In this document: in pieces, positions 856 to 9,521 of the stretch
Layout: each line of letters begins with the position of its first letter
Numbering within the stretch: position 1 is the first letter of the stretch
Source of the DNA: an uncultured Eubacteriales bacterium
GTDB taxonomy: Bacteria > Bacillota > Clostridia > Christensenellales > CAG-138
NCBI GenBank assembly: GCA_900319345.1
Contig: ONNZ01000026.1
Location: 1 to 50,781 of the forward strand
Direction: 5' to 3'
DNA length: 50,781 nt
The notes under the pieces: generated by a model
Databases searched by the model: none
What the model was told of the DNA's origin: nothing
Seen by the model: only the letters and a program-made list of their open reading frames with translations
Position numbers and translations under genes: made by a program

Positions 856-1647
856 CTATCGGTCCAGCCCCCGCCGGGTCAGCTCCTCCACGGCGAAGGA
901 GGCCACGTCCTCGGCGAACTTGCGGGGGCCGAAGCCCGCGTCGAAGCCCAGCTCCTTGGCGAGCTCGTGGGTGATCCGGGCGCCGCCGCAGATGACCACG
1001 AACCGGGATCTGAGGCCCTCCGCCTCCAAAAGCTCGATGAGCTCGGTCATGTTCTGGATGTGCACGTCCTTCTGGGTCACGGTCTGGGACACCAGCAGCA
1101 CATCCGCGTTCAGCTCTACGGCCTTCTTCACGAAGTCCTCGTTCTCCACCTGGGCCCCCAGGTTGTAGGCTTCAATCATCTCGTAGCGCTCCAGGCCGTA
1201 GTGGCCCGCGAAGCCCTTCCGGTTCATGATGGCGTCGATGCCCACGGTGTGGGCGTCGGTACCCGTGGAAGCGCCCACGAAGACCAGCTTCCGGCCGAAA
1301 TGGCTGCGGATGTAGTCGTTGACCTCCTCCATGGACATGACGCTGCTCTCCACGGTCTTGACCTCGATGTGCTCGTAGTCCACCGTGTGGACGCAGGAGC
1401 CGTAGACCACGTAGAAGGTGAAGTTCTCGTCCAGCTTCACGGCACCGGCCACGTTGGGCTCTTCAAGCCCCATCTTCCGGGCCAGCTGCCGGGCGGCCTC
1501 CATGCCCCGCTCGTCGTCCTTCACGGGCAGGGTGAAGCTCAGCTGCACCTTGCCGTCGTTCATGGTGTCGCCGTAGGCCTTGATCCGGGTCAAATCCAAC
1601 GTCCGGTCAAAGCTCTTGACGCTCATATCGTAGAGTCCGCCGCTCAT
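856..1647 (-). CDS. kamE: Lysine 5,6-aminomutase, beta subunit
   Basis: The B12-binding subunit of the adenosylcobalamin- and PLP-dependent enzyme that moves the terminal amino group of beta-lysine (or D-lysine), giving 3,5-diaminohexanoate (or 2,5-diaminohexanoate). The protein is 263 residues. The DxHxxG cobalamin motif is present (D131, H133, G136). MNRKGFAGHYG places a lysine at position 144, where the PLP-anchoring lysine of the family lies. Its ATG overlaps the kamD stop in an ATGA, so the two subunits are translationally coupled. Both key residues are intact. Confidence 0.96.
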   Translation of the reverse strand: MSGGLYDMSVKSFDRTLDLTRIKAYGDTMNDGKVQLSFTLPVKDDERGMEAARQLARKMGLEEPNVAGAVKLDENFTFYVVYGSCVHTVDYEHIEVKTVESSVMSMEEVNDYIRSHFGRKLVFVGASTGTDAHTVGIDAIMNRKGFAGHYGLERYEMIEAYNLGAQVENEDFVKKAVELNADVLLVSQTVTQKDVHIQNMTELIELLEAEGLRSRFVVICGGARITHELAKELGFDAGFGPRKFAEDVASFAVEELTRRGLDR

Positions 1648-3200
1648 TTCGTGCCTCCTTCCAGCAGGGTCAGGAAGGGATTGTAGTACCCCTCGGCCCG
1701 CAGCACCACGCCATTAAGGCCCTTGCCGCCGTCCCGCATGCGCTTGATGTCGGCGAAGGTGCCGTGCTCCAGGGTGGCGAAGAGGCCGTCGTGCTGGATC
1801 TTCTCCAAGAGGTCCGCGGCCTTGGTCAGCACCTCATCCGCCCGGTGGGCCATGATGCCGTCGGGCTTGAAGGTCATCTCCTCCCCCAGGTCCTTCATGG
1901 TGTTGAACACGTACCGGGCGTTCTCGATGGACAGGGCCCGATCCGACATGAAGGGGGTGTGGATGGCCTCGGTCATCATGCCCAAAAGGTGGATCTTTTG
2001 GCCCGTCAGGATGGTGACCATGTTGAACAGGGCGTCCTGCACGTGGCCCCGGAAGATGTTGCCTGTCATGAACTTGGTGGGCGGCATGTACTTGAGGGGC
2101 GCCTTGGGGAAGATCTCCCGGGCCATCTGGGCCTGAGCGAGCTCGTAGAGGAAGCCGTTCTCCCGGGCGGGGTCGATCTCGAAGGCGTGACCCAAGCCCT
2201 GCTGCTCCTCGGGGAGCCCGGCGCACAGGGCGAACTGCTCGTTGAGGAACTGGCTCGCCAGGACCGTGTGGGCCTCCTCCACCGCGTCCGCCGTGGTGAG
2301 ATAGTTGTCCTCGCCCGTGTTGATGATGACGCCTGCGAAGGCGTTGATCCGGCGGGAGAAGCTCTGGTCGATCAGCGTCCGCTGCATGTTGATGTCACGG
2401 AACAGGATGCCGTAGAGGGCGTCGTTCAGCATCACGTCCAGCCGCTCGAGAGCGCCCATGGCGGCGATCTCCGGCATGCACAGGCCCGAGCAGTAGTTGC
2501 ACAGGCGGATGTAGCGGCGCTCCTCCGCCCCCACCTCGTCGAGAGCCGCCCGCATAAGCCGGAAGTTCTCTTGGGTGGCGTAGGTGCCGCCGAAGCCCTC
2601 GGTGGTAGCCCCGTAGGGCACGTAGTCCAGGAGGCTTTGGCCCGTGGTGCGGATGACCGCGATCACGTCGGCCCCCTGCCGGGCGGCGGCCTTGGCCTGG
2701 ACGATGTCCTCGTAGATGTTGCCCGTGGCCACGATGACGTAGAGGTAGGGTCCCTCCTTGTCGCCGTACTCGGACAGATAGGCGTTCCTTTGGGCCACGT
2801 TTCGGCGGATGCGCTCTACGCTCTCCTTCGCCGCGGGCTCGATGGCGGCCCGGATCTCGTCGAAGCTGTGGGGGGCCACCTGGGAAAGGTCCAGCTCGCC
2901 TTTGTCCACGGCTTCGGCGATCTGCTGGGGCGTGAGCCCCGTCTCCGCCATGGCGTTGCCCAGGGCGTAGGCCGCCCCGTAGGGCAGCAGCCCCTTGTCG
3001 AGCAGGTGATCCACCACCACGTTAGGCAGGGGCACGCCCACCTCGTTCACCCCGTCGATGAGGAGCAAGCGGCAGACCGCCCGTTCCACGGTGACCGTGG
3101 TGTGCCGGTCGATGAAGGCCTGGGTGTCCACCGCCACCTGACGGGCGGCGGCCCTGGCCCGATCCACCTTATGTTGATCCAGATTCAGCTTGGATGCCAT
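1644..3200 (-). CDS. kamD: Lysine 5,6-aminomutase, alpha subunit
   Basis: The large TIM-barrel subunit (518 residues, full length for the family) that forms the PLP- and adenosylcobalamin-dependent aminomutase with KamE. The start MASKLNLDQHKVDRAR at 3200 was chosen because an open frame continues upstream into kamA but only this ATG gives the family N-terminus. It overlaps the kamA stop (TAATG). Conserved stretches such as RTTGQSLLDYVPYG, RLCNYCSGLCMPE and KYMPPTKFMTGNIF are intact. It acts third in the operon's pathway order, on the L-beta-lysine produced by KamA. Confidence 0.96.
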   Translation of the reverse strand: MASKLNLDQHKVDRARAAARQVAVDTQAFIDRHTTVTVERAVCRLLLIDGVNEVGVPLPNVVVDHLLDKGLLPYGAAYALGNAMAETGLTPQQIAEAVDKGELDLSQVAPHSFDEIRAAIEPAAKESVERIRRNVAQRNAYLSEYGDKEGPYLYVIVATGNIYEDIVQAKAAARQGADVIAVIRTTGQSLLDYVPYGATTEGFGGTYATQENFRLMRAALDEVGAEERRYIRLCNYCSGLCMPEIAAMGALERLDVMLNDALYGILFRDINMQRTLIDQSFSRRINAFAGVIINTGEDNYLTTADAVEEAHTVLASQFLNEQFALCAGLPEEQQGLGHAFEIDPARENGFLYELAQAQMAREIFPKAPLKYMPPTKFMTGNIFRGHVQDALFNMVTILTGQKIHLLGMMTEAIHTPFMSDRALSIENARYVFNTMKDLGEEMTFKPDGIMAHRADEVLTKAADLLEKIQHDGLFATLEHGTFADIKRMRDGGKGLNGVVLRAEGYYNPFLTLLEGGTK

Positions 3201-4459
3201 TACTTTATCCGTTCCTCTCTCAACAGGCCCTTGGGCGTCATGTACTTCTGCTCCACGCCCTGCTCCAGGCCCGCCACGCCCACCTTGCTCTCCCTCCGCT
3301 TGCCGGTGCACACGGGGCAATGGCAGTTCTCCTCGTAGTGGGTGGGCTCGGAATAGGTGGTGATGACGCCCTCGAAGTTCCGAAGCACGATCTTGCCGGG
3401 CTTCTGGGAGATCAGGTAGGTGGGCATCACCGGGGTCTTGCCGCCGCCGCCCGGGGCGTCCACCACGAAGGTGGGTACGCACAGGCCGCTGGTGTGGCCG
3501 CGAAGGCCCTCCATGATCTCGATGCCCTTCGATACCGGGGTGCGGAAGTGGGAAAGACCCAGGGAGGGGTCGCAGGCGTAGATGTAGTAGGGGCGCACCC
3601 GGATGTACACCAGCTCGTTCACCAGCTTTTTCATCACGTGGACGCAGTCGTTGACGCCGGCCAGCAGCACGCTCTGGTTCCCCAGGGGGATGCCCGCGTC
3701 AGCGAGGCGCGCGCAGGCCGCCGCCGCCTCGGGGGTGATCTCGTTGGGGTGGTTGAAGTGGGTGTTGACCCAGATGGGGTGATACTTCTTCAGCATGGCG
3801 CACAGCTCCGGCGTGATCCGCTGGGGACAGACCACGGGGGTGCGGGTGCCGATGCGGATGATCTCCACGTGCTCGATGGTCCGAAGCTCGGCGATGATCT
3901 GCTCGAGCAGGCTGTCGGAGAGCATCAGGGCATCGCCACCGGAGAGGAGCACGTCCCGGACCTCCTCATGCTGCCGGATGTACTCGATGCCTTTTTTGAT
4001 CTGCTCCATGGGCACGGCGCAGTCCTTCTGCCCGGCGAACCGCCGACGGGTGCAGTGGCGGCAGTACATGGAGCACTGGTCCGTGACCAGGAAAAGCACC
4101 CGGTCGGGGTACCGATGGGTCAGGCCCTTCACGGGGGAATCCGTGTCCTCGTGGAGGGGGTCCGCCGCCTCGTAGGGGGCCGATTCCAGCTCGTGGGCCG
4201 TGGGGATGGCCTGGCGGCGGATGGGATCGTATTTGTCGTTGAGGTCGATGAGGGACAGGTAGTAGGGGGTGATGGCCATGCGCAGCCGACCCAGGGTCCG
4301 GCGCACGCCCTCCTCCTCTTCCTCGGTCAAGTTCACGTACTTCTTCAGGCCCTCCAGGGTCTCTACCCGGTTCTTGACCTGCCAGTGCCAGTCGTTCCAC
4401 AGCTCATCCGGCACATCCCGGAACAGCCCGTTCCTCCGGGCGTAATTCTCAAAATGCAT
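3200..4459 (-). CDS. kamA: L-lysine 2,3-aminomutase
   Basis: A radical-SAM, PLP-dependent enzyme converting L-lysine to L-beta-lysine, the entry step of the pathway. The protein is 419 residues. The iron-sulfur motif CSMYCRHC has C129, C133 and C136. VVDAPGGGGK carries D334 and the PLP lysine K341, and D297 sits in YACDPS, matching the two substrate-binding aspartates of the family. Cysteines near 379-384 (CHCPVC) fit the C-terminal zinc site. The ATG at 4459 starts the third-last step of a tightly spaced gene run. Confidence 0.97.
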   Translation of the reverse strand: MHFENYARRNGLFRDVPDELWNDWHWQVKNRVETLEGLKKYVNLTEEEEEGVRRTLGRLRMAITPYYLSLIDLNDKYDPIRRQAIPTAHELESAPYEAADPLHEDTDSPVKGLTHRYPDRVLFLVTDQCSMYCRHCTRRRFAGQKDCAVPMEQIKKGIEYIRQHEEVRDVLLSGGDALMLSDSLLEQIIAELRTIEHVEIIRIGTRTPVVCPQRITPELCAMLKKYHPIWVNTHFNHPNEITPEAAAACARLADAGIPLGNQSVLLAGVNDCVHVMKKLVNELVYIRVRPYYIYACDPSLGLSHFRTPVSKGIEIMEGLRGHTSGLCVPTFVVDAPGGGGKTPVMPTYLISQKPGKIVLRNFEGVITTYSEPTHYEENCHCPVCTGKRRESKVGVAGLEQGVEQKYMTPKGLLREERIK

Positions 4460-4482: not shown

Positions 4483-5523
4483 TTATACGTATTTCTCGTC
4501 GAAGAGGGCGCGCAGTTTCGGGTTCTCCCGGAGCACGTTCAGGGTGATCTCGGCGTGGTCCTTGGTGTAGCCGTTGCCGATGATCATGTTCACGTCCTTG
4601 CCCACGCCCTCGGCGCCCAGGGCCGCCTTGGTGAAGCTGGTGGCCATGGAGAAGAAGTATACGAGGCCATCGTCCCGCACGGGCAGAATGGCGCTCATCT
4701 CGCAGTTGGGCTGGTTCACGCAGCAGATGGAGATGTCGTACTCCTTGCCGCCGTTGGCCGCCAGGGCCGCCTCCAGCACCGCCACGGGTTCCGTGGCGGA
4801 GGCCACGATGACCTTATGATAGACGCCCAGCTCCATGAGGGCGGGGACCTGCTTGGGGTTCCTCACGAGACCCACCACGTTGCCGGTGGGACCCACCTTC
4901 TTCATGGCCTCGTAGCCGCAGAGGACGGCGCTCTTGCCGTTGGCCCCCAGAATCAGGACGGAATCGCCCTCCTTGGGGAGCTTGCGGGCCTGGGCGGGGG
5001 CGCCGGCCACGTCCAGGGCGGCCAGGGCCAACGCTTCGCTCATGTCGGAGGGGAGCTTGGCGTAGATGCCGCTTTCGAAGAGGACGGCCTTGCCCACGAT
5101 GTCCACCCGGTCGATGTCCTTGTGGACGGCCAGGATCTTGTCGATGCGCAGCGGCGTCAGGGACAGGGACACCAGGGAGGCGATCTTGTCGCCCACCTTC
5201 AGATCCCGATCCTTCAAATCTTCGCCGATGTAGGCCACGGTGCCGATGAACATGCCGCCGGAGCCGGTGACCGGGTTCTGCTGCTTGCCCCGCTCAGCTA
5301 CGATGCCCATGATCATCTCGCCGATCTTCTTTTCGTCGCCGCCGCAGGCCTCCTCGATCTGGGTGAAGGAGGCGGAGTCGATGTTCAGGGACTGGACGTC
5401 GCAAATGATCTCGTTGGAGTAGAGGACGTCCATATTGTTGTCGATCCTATAGGCCGCCTGGGTCAATACGCCCTTGGGCTCGATGACGCGATGGGTGCCG
5501 TACTTGTTGCCTTTGAGTGCCAT
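4483..5523 (-). CDS. kdd: L-erythro-3,5-diaminohexanoate dehydrogenase
   Basis: An NAD(P)-dependent deamination of 3,5-diaminohexanoate to 5-amino-3-oxohexanoate. The protein is 346 residues, beginning MALKGNKYGTHRVIEPKGVL. A Rossmann-type segment DSVLILGANGKSAVLCGYEA lies in the middle of the protein. Identity rests on the overall match to Kdd proteins and on its position between kce and kamA, the usual gene order. About 50 bp separates it from kce upstream. Confidence 0.93.
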   Translation of the reverse strand: MALKGNKYGTHRVIEPKGVLTQAAYRIDNNMDVLYSNEIICDVQSLNIDSASFTQIEEACGGDEKKIGEMIMGIVAERGKQQNPVTGSGGMFIGTVAYIGEDLKDRDLKVGDKIASLVSLSLTPLRIDKILAVHKDIDRVDIVGKAVLFESGIYAKLPSDMSEALALAALDVAGAPAQARKLPKEGDSVLILGANGKSAVLCGYEAMKKVGPTGNVVGLVRNPKQVPALMELGVYHKVIVASATEPVAVLEAALAANGGKEYDISICCVNQPNCEMSAILPVRDDGLVYFFSMATSFTKAALGAEGVGKDVNMIIGNGYTKDHAEITLNVLRENPKLRALFDEKYV

Positions 5524-5574: not shown

Positions 5575-6417
5575 TCACTTGACGGGGCAGTTGGGACCGT
5601 CGATGAGGCCCAGGATGGCCCGGGCTTCCGCGGGAGAGGCGATCTCCCTCCCCAGCTCCCGGGAGAGGCGAACCACCTTCTCCACCAGCTCCCCGTTGCT
5701 CCGGGCCTTCACGCCCCGGGAGAGGTACAAGTTGTCCTCGAAGCCCACCCGGACGTTGCCGCCCATGACGATGGCGGGGGCTGCCAGGGTGAAGGCGCTG
5801 CGGCCCACGCCCGTGGCCGTCCAGGTGGACCCGGCGGGGATGGCGCTGGCCATCCAGACCAGGTTCTGGACCGTGGCGGGGGAACAGCCGGGGACGCCCA
5901 GCACGAAGTTGAACTGCATGGGCGCGCCGGGGACCTCCCCCTTGCGGGCCATGTTCAGGATGGTGTCCAGGTGACCCATCTCGAAGCACTCGTACTCGGG
6001 CTTGATATGGTTCTCGATCATCCGCTTCCCGAAGGCCCGCATGGTGGGCATGGTGTTGTCGAAGATCTCGTCGCCGAAGTTGCAGGTGCCGCAGTCCAGG
6101 GTGGCCATCTCCGGGAACAGCTCCGTGGGCTGCAATCTTTCCTCGGGCTTCATGCCCGTGGCGCCGCCGGTGGAGGGGATCATGATCACGTCCGGAAGCT
6201 CCGCCCGGATGGCGTCCATGACCACCCGGAACCGCTCCCTATCCTGGGTGGGGGTGCCGTCGTCCCAGCGGACGTGGACGTGGATGATGGAAGCCCCGGC
6301 GTCGTAGGCGGACCGGGCCTCCCGGACCATCTCCGCCACGGTGTAGGGGACGGCGGGATTCTGCTGCTTGGTGACCTCTGCGCCGCAGATGGCGGCGGTG
6401 ATGATGAGCTTCTCCAT
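5575..6417 (-). CDS. kce: 3-keto-5-aminohexanoate cleavage enzyme (BKACE family)
   Basis: Kce transfers acetyl-CoA onto 5-amino-3-oxohexanoate, giving acetoacetate and 3-aminobutyryl-CoA. The protein is 280 residues. HVHVR (H46, H48) supplies zinc ligands of the beta-keto acid cleavage enzyme family, and STGGATGM and MGGNVRVGFEDN are typical family stretches. The start MEKLIITAAICGAEV at 6417 lies one base from the kal stop, which points to co-translation. Confidence 0.95.
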   Translation of the reverse strand: MEKLIITAAICGAEVTKQQNPAVPYTVAEMVREARSAYDAGASIIHVHVRWDDGTPTQDRERFRVVMDAIRAELPDVIMIPSTGGATGMKPEERLQPTELFPEMATLDCGTCNFGDEIFDNTMPTMRAFGKRMIENHIKPEYECFEMGHLDTILNMARKGEVPGAPMQFNFVLGVPGCSPATVQNLVWMASAIPAGSTWTATGVGRSAFTLAAPAIVMGGNVRVGFEDNLYLSRGVKARSNGELVEKVVRLSRELGREIASPAEARAILGLIDGPNCPVK

Positions 6418-6418
6418 A

Positions 6419-6802
6419 TCAGTTGAACCTTTGCTTGTCCTTGGGGGTCACGCAGGTGCCGCTGGCCCGGCAGACCAGGATGGGCTCCGCCAGGACCTCC
6501 GCCGCGGAATCGCTGATGTCCGGCCGGGCGGTGATGACCTTGCGGGCCTCGAAGATCATCTTCCGGGAGGTGTTGCCCTCGGACACGATCTCTCCCGTGG
6601 CTTCGATGTAATCCCCGGCGTAGACCGGCGCCTTGAACTCTACCATGTCGTAGGCGCAGAACAGGCCCTCGTCCCCGTCCCGGCGGATCAGCAGCTCCGT
6701 CGCCACGTCCCCGAACAGCTCCAGCATCTTCGCACCGTCCACCAGGTTCCCGCCGTAGTGGGCGTCGTGGGCGCTCATGCGCACCCGAATGGTCACTTGC
6801 AT
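6419..6802 (-). CDS. kal: 3-aminobutyryl-CoA ammonia-lyase
   Basis: A hotdog-fold enzyme releasing ammonia from L-3-aminobutyryl-CoA to give crotonyl-CoA, which feeds butyrate formation. The protein is 127 residues with the family motif [19 protein letters not shown] at the N-terminus. It is the first gene after the lysine riboswitch. The ATG at 6802 is preceded by GGAGGCAGGAGT. No butyryl-CoA dehydrogenase or CoA-transferase genes are in the window, so the pathway must finish elsewhere. Confidence 0.94.
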
Positions 6803-6830
6803 ACTCCTGCCTCCTTATGCATTTTGAAAT

Positions 6831-6864
6831 AGAAAAACGCTATGGAAAAGGTCTTCCCATAGCG
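6831..6864 (-). terminator. Second terminator-like hairpin in kal leader (T2)
   Basis: CGCTATGG (6864-6857) pairs with CCATAGCG (6845-6838). The stem can extend inward with GAA/TTT pairs, and T5 (6837-6833) follows. Its 5' arm repeats the GCGCTAT found at the end of the riboswitch aptamer. Confidence 0.65.
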
Positions 6865-6872
6865 CTCCGTCC

Positions 6873-6913
6873 AAAGAAAAAGGCTATCGACGCGGAATGA
6901 CCGTATCGATAGC
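6873..6913 (-). terminator. Riboswitch-controlled terminator (T1)
   Basis: GCTATCGA (6913-6906) pairs with TCGATAGC (6890-6883), with an inner CGG/CCG helix, and is followed by CTTTTTCTTT. The 5' arm contains CTATC (6912-6908), which is also the 3' strand of riboswitch helix P1. The two structures therefore exclude each other. Confidence 0.8.
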
Positions 6914-7068
6914 GCTTCGTCAACCAGACGACAGTGGCCGAGCCATGTCCGCCCGACCCCCAAGAAGCGGAAGCGGCGAAGCTTCCTCCCCTTTCGGCGG
7001 CTGCGCCCCTTTCCCGGGGGACCGTTCGCCCGTTCCCCGCCGGGTACCCTGCGCGCCGCGCCTCTATC
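6908..7068 (-). promoter_or_regulatory. Lysine riboswitch aptamer, predicted ON switch
   Basis: On the minus strand a 161-nt element is closed by GATAG (7068-7064) and CTATC (6912-6908). It contains the lysine-riboswitch core segments GATAGAGGCGCG at the 5' end, AGCCGCCGAA in the middle (around 7003-6993), and ACTGTCGT followed by GACGAAGCGCTATC at the 3' end. Size and order of segments match the lysine riboswitch class. Lysine binding should stabilise P1 and so prevent terminator T1. This would induce lysine catabolism, the opposite of the usual OFF logic on biosynthesis genes. Confidence 0.88.
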
Positions 7069-7087
7069 TCCCTATTCTGTTGTAGGT

Positions 7088-7117
7088 ATTGTACCAAATA
7101 AGTTGCTGGCTTGTCAA
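7088..7117 (-). promoter_or_regulatory. Promoter of the lysine-fermentation operon
   Basis: TTGACA (7117-7112) and TACAAT (7093-7088) are 18 bp apart. Transcription should begin near 7081, about 13 nt before the riboswitch. The -35 box overlaps the end of the upstream MutS-like gene. Confidence 0.8.
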
Positions 7118-8568
7118 TCGGGACGGGTCATATATTCCTGCCGGATGGCTTGGAGCAAGCCCTCCTCCACCCCCAGCAGCTCCGCCACGGACAGGGCCTT
7201 TTGGGGCACGGCGGCATCGGTGATCTCCTCGATGCCGTAGTCCATGAAGCGACGAAGGACGGCGAGCTTGTCGGCCCCGGCTTCGATCATGCGGCGGCCC
7301 TCCGATACGTCCAGGTCCCGGATGCCCCGGGTGAGGAAGCGGCGGCTCGCCCGGGCGGCCACGGCCTCATAGTGGGTGACGAAGAGGCAGATGGAGCCGG
7401 AAGCGTTGAAGTAGGACAGGGCCCCCTGCTGGAGCTTCACGGCCTCGGCCGGGTTGGTGCCCCGGGCGAACTCGTCGAAGAGGACCAGGCAGAAACCATG
7501 CTGCACGGCCCGGGCGGCAGCGTCCGCGGCCATGAGCTCCCCGCCGAAGGAGGAAAGGCCCTCCCGGCCGTCCTCCCCCTCCCCCCGGACCAGGCACAGG
7601 CCGTCGAAGAGGGGTACGGTTGCTGCGTCGGCAAAGGGGAACAGGCCGCAGTGGGTGAGATACACGTTCAGGGCCAGGGTCTTGAGGCACACGCTCTTGC
7701 CGCCCATGTTGGCCCCTGTGAGCACGGCGGCCCCGGGAACGAGGGACAGGCTGAGGGGCGTGAAGGCGGCCCCCTGGCGCCGGAGGCTGTCCCGGATGGC
7801 GGGATGGACCATGTTCACGAAGGACAGCTCCTTGTGGGTCAGGGTGGGCCGGACGCCGCCCAGCTCCTGGACCAGGGCGGCCTTGGCGAAAAGTAGGTCC
7901 AGATGGGCCAGGGCGTCCAGGCTGTCAGCTATCGCTTTTCGATAGGGCAGCAGCTTTTGGGACAGGGCCGCGCACAGGCGTTGCTCCGCCTCCGCCTCCC
8001 GCATCACGATCCCCGTGCGCTGGACCAGCAGGGCTTCCCGGGCTTCCCCGGCAGCCTGGGCGATTTGTTTTTCAATGATCCGCTTCTCCTCCCGGACGGC
8101 GGTCAGGTCAGCCGACCACTGGTCCCGCAGGGAGAAGGATGGGTTGCCGGAGTTTTCCGGGTCCAGAACAGCGAAGGCCTCGGGCACCTCCTGCAGGGCC
8201 AGGTCCTCCCATCGGGCGGAGGCCTGCAGGGCGGCGAAGTCAGCCGCCAGGCCCCGCAGCAGCAGCAGATACCGCTTGAGCTCGAAGAGCTCCACTTGGT
8301 CCAGGTCCCGCTCCTTCAGCCTCGCTACGGTGGCGCGGATGTCCCTCACCTGCATGAGCCCCTGGCGAAAGCCGCGGAGAGCGGGATGGTCCCCCAGGGC
8401 CACGGCTTTGCCCAGGTCCTCGAGCTCCCGCTGCAGGGCGTCCCGTTCCGACGGGGCAAAGGGGGCTAGGGCCCGCTTCTTCTCCCGGCCCAGGGGGCTC
8501 AGGGGCAAGAGTCGGTCCAGCACGAAGTCGAGGCCTATATCCTGTTGCTGCTGCAAAGTCAATTCCAT
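7114..8568 (-). CDS. MutS-like ATPase of lysine-fermentation clusters
   Basis: A 484-residue protein containing only the core, clamp and ATPase parts of MutS. Walker A is TGANMGGKS (about residue 287) and Walker B is LVLFDEFARGTN (about 364). It has no mismatch-recognition domain, so a DNA-repair role is unlikely. Proteins of this type sit in lysine aminomutase clusters of other anaerobes, where I recall the names kamB/kamC. A role in handling or reactivating the B12 enzyme is inference. ATG 8568 has GGAGG nine bases upstream and overlaps the preceding gene by 10 bp; an upstream TTG at 8583 is less likely. Confidence 0.8.
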   Translation of the reverse strand: MELTLQQQQDIGLDFVLDRLLPLSPLGREKKRALAPFAPSERDALQRELEDLGKAVALGDHPALRGFRQGLMQVRDIRATVARLKERDLDQVELFELKRYLLLLRGLAADFAALQASARWEDLALQEVPEAFAVLDPENSGNPSFSLRDQWSADLTAVREEKRIIEKQIAQAAGEAREALLVQRTGIVMREAEAEQRLCAALSQKLLPYRKAIADSLDALAHLDLLFAKAALVQELGGVRPTLTHKELSFVNMVHPAIRDSLRRQGAAFTPLSLSLVPGAAVLTGANMGGKSVCLKTLALNVYLTHCGLFPFADAATVPLFDGLCLVRGEGEDGREGLSSFGGELMAADAAARAVQHGFCLVLFDEFARGTNPAEAVKLQQGALSYFNASGSICLFVTHYEAVAARASRRFLTRGIRDLDVSEGRRMIEAGADKLAVLRRFMDYGIEEITDAAVPQKALSVAELLGVEEGLLQAIRQEYMTRPD

Positions 8569-9521
8569 TGGGTTTCCTCCCAAATGTTCACCACGGGCAC
8601 GTCCACCTTCCGCGCCACCAGCTCCTGGAAGGCGGCGGCATCGTAGGGCGCGCCGTAGGCGGAAAAGGGGTTCACGGTCACGGCGATGAGGGCGTTCTGC
8701 CGGCGGACCCGGAAGGATACGCCCTGGGCCCGGAGCTTTTCGTAGTTCTCCCGGGACAGCAGGAGCCGGGTGCCGTCCTCCACGGCGACCTGCTTCGGAA
8801 GGGCTTTACGCCGCAACAAGGTCGAAGCCATGGCGTCCGTGAAGGCCCCGGTGGCGTAGAGGATATCCCCCGGCCCCTCCAGGGCTTCCGTCAGCTCGTC
8901 GAACAGGGCCTCTCCCCGGGCGAAGCGGCGGCCCGCCAACTGGGGCCAGGGGCCGCTGGTCGGCAGGGTCAGGAGTTCCGCCACAAAGGCCGTGTCCGCC
9001 GCCGTTTTTTCCATGTCCGGCCCGTAGCTGGCCCCGGTGGAGAGGATGACCCCCTCCGCCGCCTCGGGGTCGCACAGGCTCCGGCGGAACAGGGCTCCGT
9101 CGATGAGCACCTTCTGGGCGCCGAAGCCCTTGAGCTGCTCCGTCAGGGACACGATCTGGTCCCGCATGGAGGGGCCTGCCAGCTCCACGAACCCGTCGGA
9201 CAGGGCCCGCAGGATGACCACCTCGCCCAGGGGCGTGTGGATGCCGGTCATGTCCAGTATCTCCCCCGTGGCGTCGCACTTGGGGAGCAGCCCCCGGGCC
9301 GTGGCGAACAAAGTGCCCCCCGTCAGGTAGATGGGGGGCTTGTTGGTGCCGGTGACCAGATCCTCCCGCTCCCCGTCCCGACCGATGGAAGTGAGGGCAA
9401 GGGAAACGCCCCGAGCTCTGGCCCCGCGGATGAGGGCGTTGAGCGCGGTGGTCTTCCCCGCGTTCTTGCACATCCCCGCGAGGCACAGGGTGGTATAGGG
9501 AGCGACGAGGTCAAAGAGCAT
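8559..9521 (-). CDS. P-loop protein paired with the MutS-like gene
   Basis: A 320-residue protein with an N-terminal Walker A (GMCKNAGKTT, residues 16-25). It resembles the unnamed P-loop partner of the MutS-like protein in lysine-fermentation clusters. No membrane segment is visible. Starting at ATG 9521, it begins 3 bp after the nucleotidyltransferase stop and ends inside the start of the MutS-like gene, so all three are one transcription unit. The biochemical function is unknown to me; GTP- or ATP-dependent remodelling of the aminomutase is a guess from context. Confidence 0.7.
   Translation of the reverse strand: MLFDLVAPYTTLCLAGMCKNAGKTTALNALIRGARARGVSLALTSIGRDGEREDLVTGTNKPPIYLTGGTLFATARGLLPKCDATGEILDMTGIHTPLGEVVILRALSDGFVELAGPSMRDQIVSLTEQLKGFGAQKVLIDGALFRRSLCDPEAAEGVILSTGASYGPDMEKTAADTAFVAELLTLPTSGPWPQLAGRRFARGEALFDELTEALEGPGDILYATGAFTDAMASTLLRRKALPKQVAVEDGTRLLLSRENYEKLRAQGVSFRVRRQNALIAVTVNPFSAYGAPYDAAAFQELVARKVDVPVVNIWEETQWN

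Follow-up and report, generated by a model that had tools for sequence, protein, structure and literature searches.

The leader of the kal gene in the window, by which the whole 50,781-nt stretch of DNA analysed is meant, carries one lysine riboswitch aptamer that is followed by two terminator stem-loops, T1 and T2. The 3' strand of aptamer helix P1 is at the same time the 5' arm of T1, an arrangement that is conserved in and specific to kal leaders, and T2 is headed by a second copy of the aptamer 3' half that is complementary to the 5' strand of aptamer helix P5. This leader is likely to act as a whole as a transcriptional lysine-ON switch with two serial terminators controlling kal-kce-kdd-kamADE. 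Judged from its sequence, ON control at T1 by predicted lysine binding is very likely. We infer that the aptamer binds lysine and that lysine raises expression of the operon. For T2 we tentatively propose, with a confidence that falls a little short of even, that the single aptamer blocks T1 and subsequently T2 by swapping copy 1 of its 3' half for copy 2, which would result in a sharper and less leaky ON response.

Eight genes around the riboswitch exceeded their NCBIfam cut-offs, namely kamB, kamC, kal, kce, kdd, kamA and the genes for both lysine 5,6-aminomutase subunits. The aptamer is positioned between kamC (upstream) and kal (downstream), which are both on the minus strand (Table 1). 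The reactivase genes of lysine 5,6-aminomutase, kamC and kamB, occupy positions 7114-9521 of the window (minus strand), upstream of the riboswitch. The promoter-like site of the leader scored 11 out of 12, and one such site was found where 0.1 were expected in shuffles of positions 6000-8000. Its -35 box overlaps the end of kamC. Transcription reading through from kamB and kamC would also encounter T1 and T2.

Table 1. Genes of the operon and elements of the kal leader, in window coordinates.
Feature	Position	Strand	Details
kal, 3-aminobutyryl-CoA ammonia lyase	6419..6802	(-)	NF052388, 200.9 bits, cut-off 160
kce, 3-keto-5-aminohexanoate cleavage enzyme	5575..6417	(-)	NF052387
kdd, L-erythro-3,5-diaminohexanoate dehydrogenase	4483..5523	(-)	NF052381
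kamA, lysine 2,3-aminomutase	3200..4459	(-)	TIGR03820
kamD, lysine 5,6-aminomutase subunit alpha	1644..3191	(-)	NF052384, residues 98-607 of ORF; start approximate, listed ORF extends to 3482
kamE, lysine 5,6-aminomutase subunit beta	856..1647	(-)	NF052385
Promoter-like site, sigma-70-like	7088..7117	(-)	TTGACA 7117-7112, 18-nt spacer, TG, TACAAT 7093-7088
Lysine riboswitch aptamer, RF00168	6902..7074	(-)	cmscan 67.5 bits, cut-off 30, E 1.4e-15, model 1-182 complete
P1 5' strand GATAG	7064..7068	(-)	pairs with CTATC 6912-6908
P5 5' strand TCGTC	6927..6931	(-)	can pair with copy 1 or copy 2
Copy 1, aptamer 3' half	6908..6921	(-)	P5 3' strand GACGA, J5/1 AGCG, P1 3' strand CTATC
Terminator T1, stem-loop	6883..6913	(-)	U run TTTTT 6881-6877; hairpin-plus-U-run scan
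Copy 2, aptamer 3' half	6858..6871	(-)	GACGG AGCG CTATG
Terminator T2, stem-loop	6834..6868	(-)	U run 6837-6833; found by both scans

The RF00168 match (7074-6902, minus strand, 67.5 bits) was the only Rfam match in the window at the gathering threshold, and the lysine riboswitch that the first-pass annotation had read from the letters was thereby recovered with a covariance model. A tandem riboswitch or a whole second aptamer in the window was rejected on the basis of this single match. The P1 strands GATAG (7068-7064) and CTATC (6912-6908) as well as T1 (6913-6883) were found exactly where that annotation had placed them, with CTATC doubling as the T1 5' arm. As P1 and T1 need the same CTATC, a P1 that is stabilized by lysine excludes T1. 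The folding energy of T1 including its U run is -18.1 kcal/mol. A generic terminator scan of positions 6000-8000, for which 1.2 sites were expected in shuffles, listed T2 and did not list T1; a scan for a hairpin plus a U run recovered both. By itself the generic scan proves neither T1 nor T2, and the real evidence for them is their conservation in relatives. Energies were calculated with ViennaRNA, leaving out ligand and tertiary contacts. At the T1 decision in the window, T1 is better than the unliganded aptamer by 7.8 kcal/mol. The ligand, the tertiary folding and the head start of the aptamer must outweigh this advantage.

The layout was compared within the GTDB family of the window in 103 genomes, 79 of which contained RF00168 and 69 of which contained kal above the cut-off; two kal matches below the cut-off (the second match in G019, and G089) were dropped before counting. 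The aptamer was present upstream of 62 of the 69 kal genes, at 43 to 302 nt from the kal match. Ahead of the other seven (G016, G018, G021, G022, G023, G032 and G100) the search gave no RF00168 match, this search being filtered in a way that loses weak matches. A layout was called ON-like if a hairpin of -8 kcal/mol or lower ended at four or more consecutive T and began 5 nt or more inside the aptamer 3' end; the scanned stretch extended up to kal, or up to the next ORF or 260 nt. Such a layout was observed in 60 of the 62 kal leaders (the exceptions are G025 and G078), whereas among the family's 38 lysine riboswitches that are not paired with kal it was seen in 4 (G006, G070, contig 200 of G013, and G065). 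Six of the genes behind these 38 riboswitches were searched. One aspartate kinase, one DapA and two diaminopimelate decarboxylases were above their cut-offs, and an ABC binding protein and an Na+/H+ antiporter-like protein were below them. The latter belongs to the second lysine riboswitch in the window's own genome, which lies on contig 25 ahead of the antiporter-like gene (L003, 899-1073, 80 bits). The hairpin-plus-U-run scan revealed no U-run terminator overlapping its aptamer end, so its platform is unlike that of the kal leader.

One family thus offers a clean contrast, in which kal leaders are ON-like and the other lysine riboswitches are mostly not. The first-pass annotation had proposed that lysine, by blocking termination at T1, would induce kal-kce-kdd-kamADE, and that the same layout might be sought before kal/kamA in related genomes. 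The anatomy of the leader and the family counts agree with ON control, and the layout is indeed present before kal in the relatives. Relief of T1 is not sufficient for induction, because T2, which is headed by a second copy that the annotation had passed over, intervenes between T1 and kal. The same annotation had singled out the reversed logic on a catabolic operon as deserving a test. The accessible part of PMC5584792 describes the lysine riboswitches that precede kal/kce in C. sticklandii, F. nucleatum and Thermoanaerobacter as positively regulated; that of PMC2258182 refers to Rodionov 2003 in mentioning lysine riboswitches whose genetic logic is ON. As far as these texts go, the reversed logic has been predicted before, and the window adds one more member.

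The distribution of the riboswitch was also studied in other lineages. The Rfam search covered 33 of at least 80 named kce loci. RF00168 was located upstream of kal or kce in 21 of the 23 searched loci titled as Clostridia and relatives, of which L094 is probably also within the family set. L088 and L099, the two loci without a match, start just 402 and 255 nt ahead of kce. The aptamer ended 122 to 163 nt before kce in L108, L132, L135 and L139, where there is no space for kal, and 427 to 654 nt before kce in the remaining 17. With a slightly laxer cut, the ON-like layout was present in 16 of the 21. RF00168 was not found at ten kce loci, one titled 'bacterium' and nine of Porphyromonas, Butyricimonas, Odoribacter and the like, which we take to be Bacteroidales-type genera. 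Of the 291 genomes in a class-wide survey, 20 had kal at E 1e-30, 16 of them above the cut-off. Of the 22 matches of this survey in all, 20 loci were searched and one (L212) contained RF00168. This rarity indicates that the pairing of kal with the riboswitch is confined to some lineages. In family f24, where 12 of 22 genomes had kal above the cut-off, no riboswitch was found at the 9 loci searched of the 15 matched.

Ahead of the second terminator of the window stand a copied P5 3' strand, J5/1 and P1 3' strand: T2 starts with GACGGAGCGCTATGG, a near copy of the aptamer's GACGAAGCGCTATCG, 50 nt downstream. To count as a second copy, a stretch within about 110 nt had to contain the core G[CTA]GCT[AG]T and to match copy 1 at 10 or more of 13 positions. 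Second copies were present in 20 of the 62 kal leaders (0.07 expected from dinucleotide shuffles; G033, with a degenerate second copy, was left out), in 9 of the 21 named loci (0.02 expected) and in none of the 38 non-kal lysine riboswitches (0.03 expected). According to these shuffles, chance does not supply the block. An earlier and looser likeness test, which had selected 14 of the 62 leaders at p <= 0.02, was superseded by this stricter motif test. The 20 family leaders are spread over six genera. Among the nine named loci are Flavonifractor plautii ATCC 29863 (L135) and Pseudoflavonifractor phocaeensis An507 (L108), in both of which the layout precedes kce, as well as Candidatus Intestinimonas (L131) and two Oscillibacter MAGs (L132 and L139).

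A phylum-wide pattern search yielded the double motif in 1 of 398 genomes (G704), which is the thirtieth case; this is no estimate of frequency, the exact pattern missing most variants, that of the window included. In G704 (L229) the double platform precedes kdd (NCBIfam 284 bits, cut-off 200; 56% identity to the Kdd of the window) and follows the second of two complete lysine aptamers (1075-1257 and 1338-1519). Its congener G745 (L231) has two aptamers before kdd as well, but only one platform after the second. Each aptamer in both genomes is followed by an ON-like hairpin, and a 39-nt stretch of the G745 platform recurs in the downstream platform of G704. Comparison of the two sequences suggests that a platform was gained or lost within this genus. 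In the reading that includes the proposed exchange of the 3' half, to which we give slightly less than even odds, an architecture of one aptamer with a duplicated platform recurs in lysine-fermentation leaders of at least three groups, i.e. the family of the window, Flavonifractor/Oscillibacter-like bacteria, and G704.

The two copies were compared in the 30 double-copy elements, the choice of which was based partly on likeness of the block itself, so that both the identity and the pairing figures are inflated. The copies agree in 24 to 30 of the 30 at offsets -6 to -3 and 0 to +6, in 10 and 19 at offsets -2 and -1, and in 3 to 15 at the other offsets between -20 and +25, except for +8 with 21. 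As far as the aligned copies tell, the conserved block is the aptamer 3' half and not the loop or upper stem of the terminator. In six fully folded T2s of the window's genus the stem starts at offset -3, which leaves most of the copy-2 P5 strand outside it. The P5 5' strand can pair with copy 2 in 147 of 150 cells; shuffles averaged 127.4, and none of 2000 reached that number (kinship uncorrected). Covariation was seen on both sides, pair 3 being A-U or G-C and pair 5 being C-G, G-C or A-U. For the six pairs of P1 on copy 2 the number was 149 of 180 cells versus a shuffle mean of 147.2, kinship again uncorrected; CUAU is nearly invariant, and the outer two pairs beyond it displayed no covariation. 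In the window, P1 on copy 2 amounts to 4 bp. The Rfam matches of G047 and G048 end at copy 2, i.e. these aptamers were closed with copy 2.

The proposed exchange would proceed as follows. Without lysine, T1 would take copy 1, and a polymerase escaping T1 would then meet T2, headed by copy 2. With lysine, the folded aptamer would keep copy 1 in P1 and P5, preventing T1. Once the polymerase is past T1, the T1 hairpin could form harmlessly, and the aptamer would re-close on copy 2, pairing its P5 5' strand with GACGG and its P1 5' strand with CUAU. An aptamer closed in this way would keep T2 from using its 5' arm. Just after the emergence of copy 2, the combination of T1 with the aptamer on copy 2 is 6.0 kcal/mol better in the window than the aptamer on copy 1. 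The same preference was computed for 29 of 29 evaluable elements, from which L131 was excluded since its contradictory constraints returned minus infinity. At the end of T2, the aptamer on copy 1 together with T2 is favoured over the aptamer on copy 2 in the window, by 4.4 or 5.9 kcal/mol in two calculations. In the window, an exchange would have to be kinetic. T2-end energies favour copy 2 in 11 of the 20 family elements and do not in 9; these counts were taken from a different calculation than the set of T2-end energies that is unreliable where the U-run finder stopped in the loop (e.g. G041, G043, G044, G046, G010 and G099).

Other explanations for T2 have to be weighed against this. By analogy with the c-di-GMP riboswitch Bc1, in which, according to the accessible text of PMC11218506, T2 is kept folded while the ligand unfolds T1 so that there is no net response, masking by T2 may be considered a serious rival. 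T1 would then be controlled by lysine, and T2, as an unregulated attenuator, would reduce or hide the response; copy 2 would be kept for the GCGCTAT in the T2 stem. The T2-end energies of the window, with their preference for copy 1 and T2, fit with this. However, masking offers no reason for the kept P5 3' strand of copy 2, most of which falls outside the T2 stem in the six fully folded elements from the window's genus and which tracks the P5 5' strand of the aptamer across lineages, nor for the absence of the copy from the 38 non-kal lysine riboswitches. Besides, the operon would be silenced if the leader always terminated at T2. We regard it as a doubtful explanation that nevertheless has to be taken seriously. 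Rather unlikely in our view is that copy 2 is the relic of a duplication of the expression platform, with no sensing function of its own. A local duplication is itself likely in view of the two platforms after the second aptamer of G704, the one in G745 and their common stretch, and duplication alone gives the initial complementarity of copy 2 to P5. Yet six genera of the family and several named loci outside it have kept the block, while its surroundings differ in sequence between the copies.

It is also conceivable that T2 is blocked by a relay, in which the 3' arm of T1 (ATAGC), free while the aptamer retains copy 1, base-pairs with the GCTAT of copy 2. The five base pairs are present in the window and would be available with any terminator led by GCGCTAT, but this leaves the kept P5 strand without a role. 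In the window the structure is 10.3 kcal/mol worse than the aptamer on copy 1 with T2 and 5.9 kcal/mol worse than the aptamer on copy 2 with T1. On these window energies it was set aside as very improbable. Still more improbable is an ordinary lysine OFF switch in which T1 is incidental. The accessible part of PMC11477304 describes lysine riboswitches on synthesis genes as OFF switches. This explanation was set aside for the kal leader because a strand is common to P1 and T1 and because kal leaders are set apart by their layout from the family's remaining lysine riboswitches. Six elements (G030 and G050-G054, at loci L149, L165, L171, L157, L156 and L174) have copy 2 in a stable hairpin with no clear U run, far from the kal start. 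These hairpins are poorly explained by any of the readings.

The leader was further compared with known systems. The kal/kce riboswitches of PMC5584792 and PMC2258182 have the aptamer family, the pathway genes and the predicted direction of control in common with the window; in the descriptions that these texts give, which are the sole basis of the comparison, no second aptamer 3' half or second terminator is mentioned. Bc1 resembles the window in that one aptamer is followed by two intrinsic terminators. It differs in that T2 stays folded with ligand, and the available text of PMC11218506 mentions no duplicated aptamer strand; its authors state that a dual terminator in one expression platform is rarely seen. 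Tandem lysine riboswitches (14 doublets in the part of PMC9481103 consulted) would, like the proposed exchange, provide two successive lysine terminator checkpoints per leader, but the doublets consist of two complete aptamers, as against one aptamer plus a copied 3' half in the window. G704 combines both arrangements, with tandem aptamers and a doubled platform ahead of kdd. Covariation models of whole lysine riboswitches include strand sharing between aptamer and platform, as is found in the window, and the post-aptamer stretch of 25-50 nt given in the accessible section of PMC13273304 would mostly fall short of the second copy. Among the best-ranked papers of the literature searched, with subscription journals mostly outside its coverage, no recognisable description of a copied aptamer 3' half was found.

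In that same literature, ON lysine riboswitches on fermentation genes have been predicted and not dissected. Should the exchange from copy 1 to copy 2 take place, one aptamer would check its ligand twice in each round of transcription, and no additional aptamer would be needed to sharpen the response. A design with a duplicated 3' half from a single aptamer, each duplicate heading its own terminator, is open to testing. Sequences from cultured gut bacteria can serve for this, since the layout is present in Flavonifractor plautii ATCC 29863 and in Pseudoflavonifractor phocaeensis An507.
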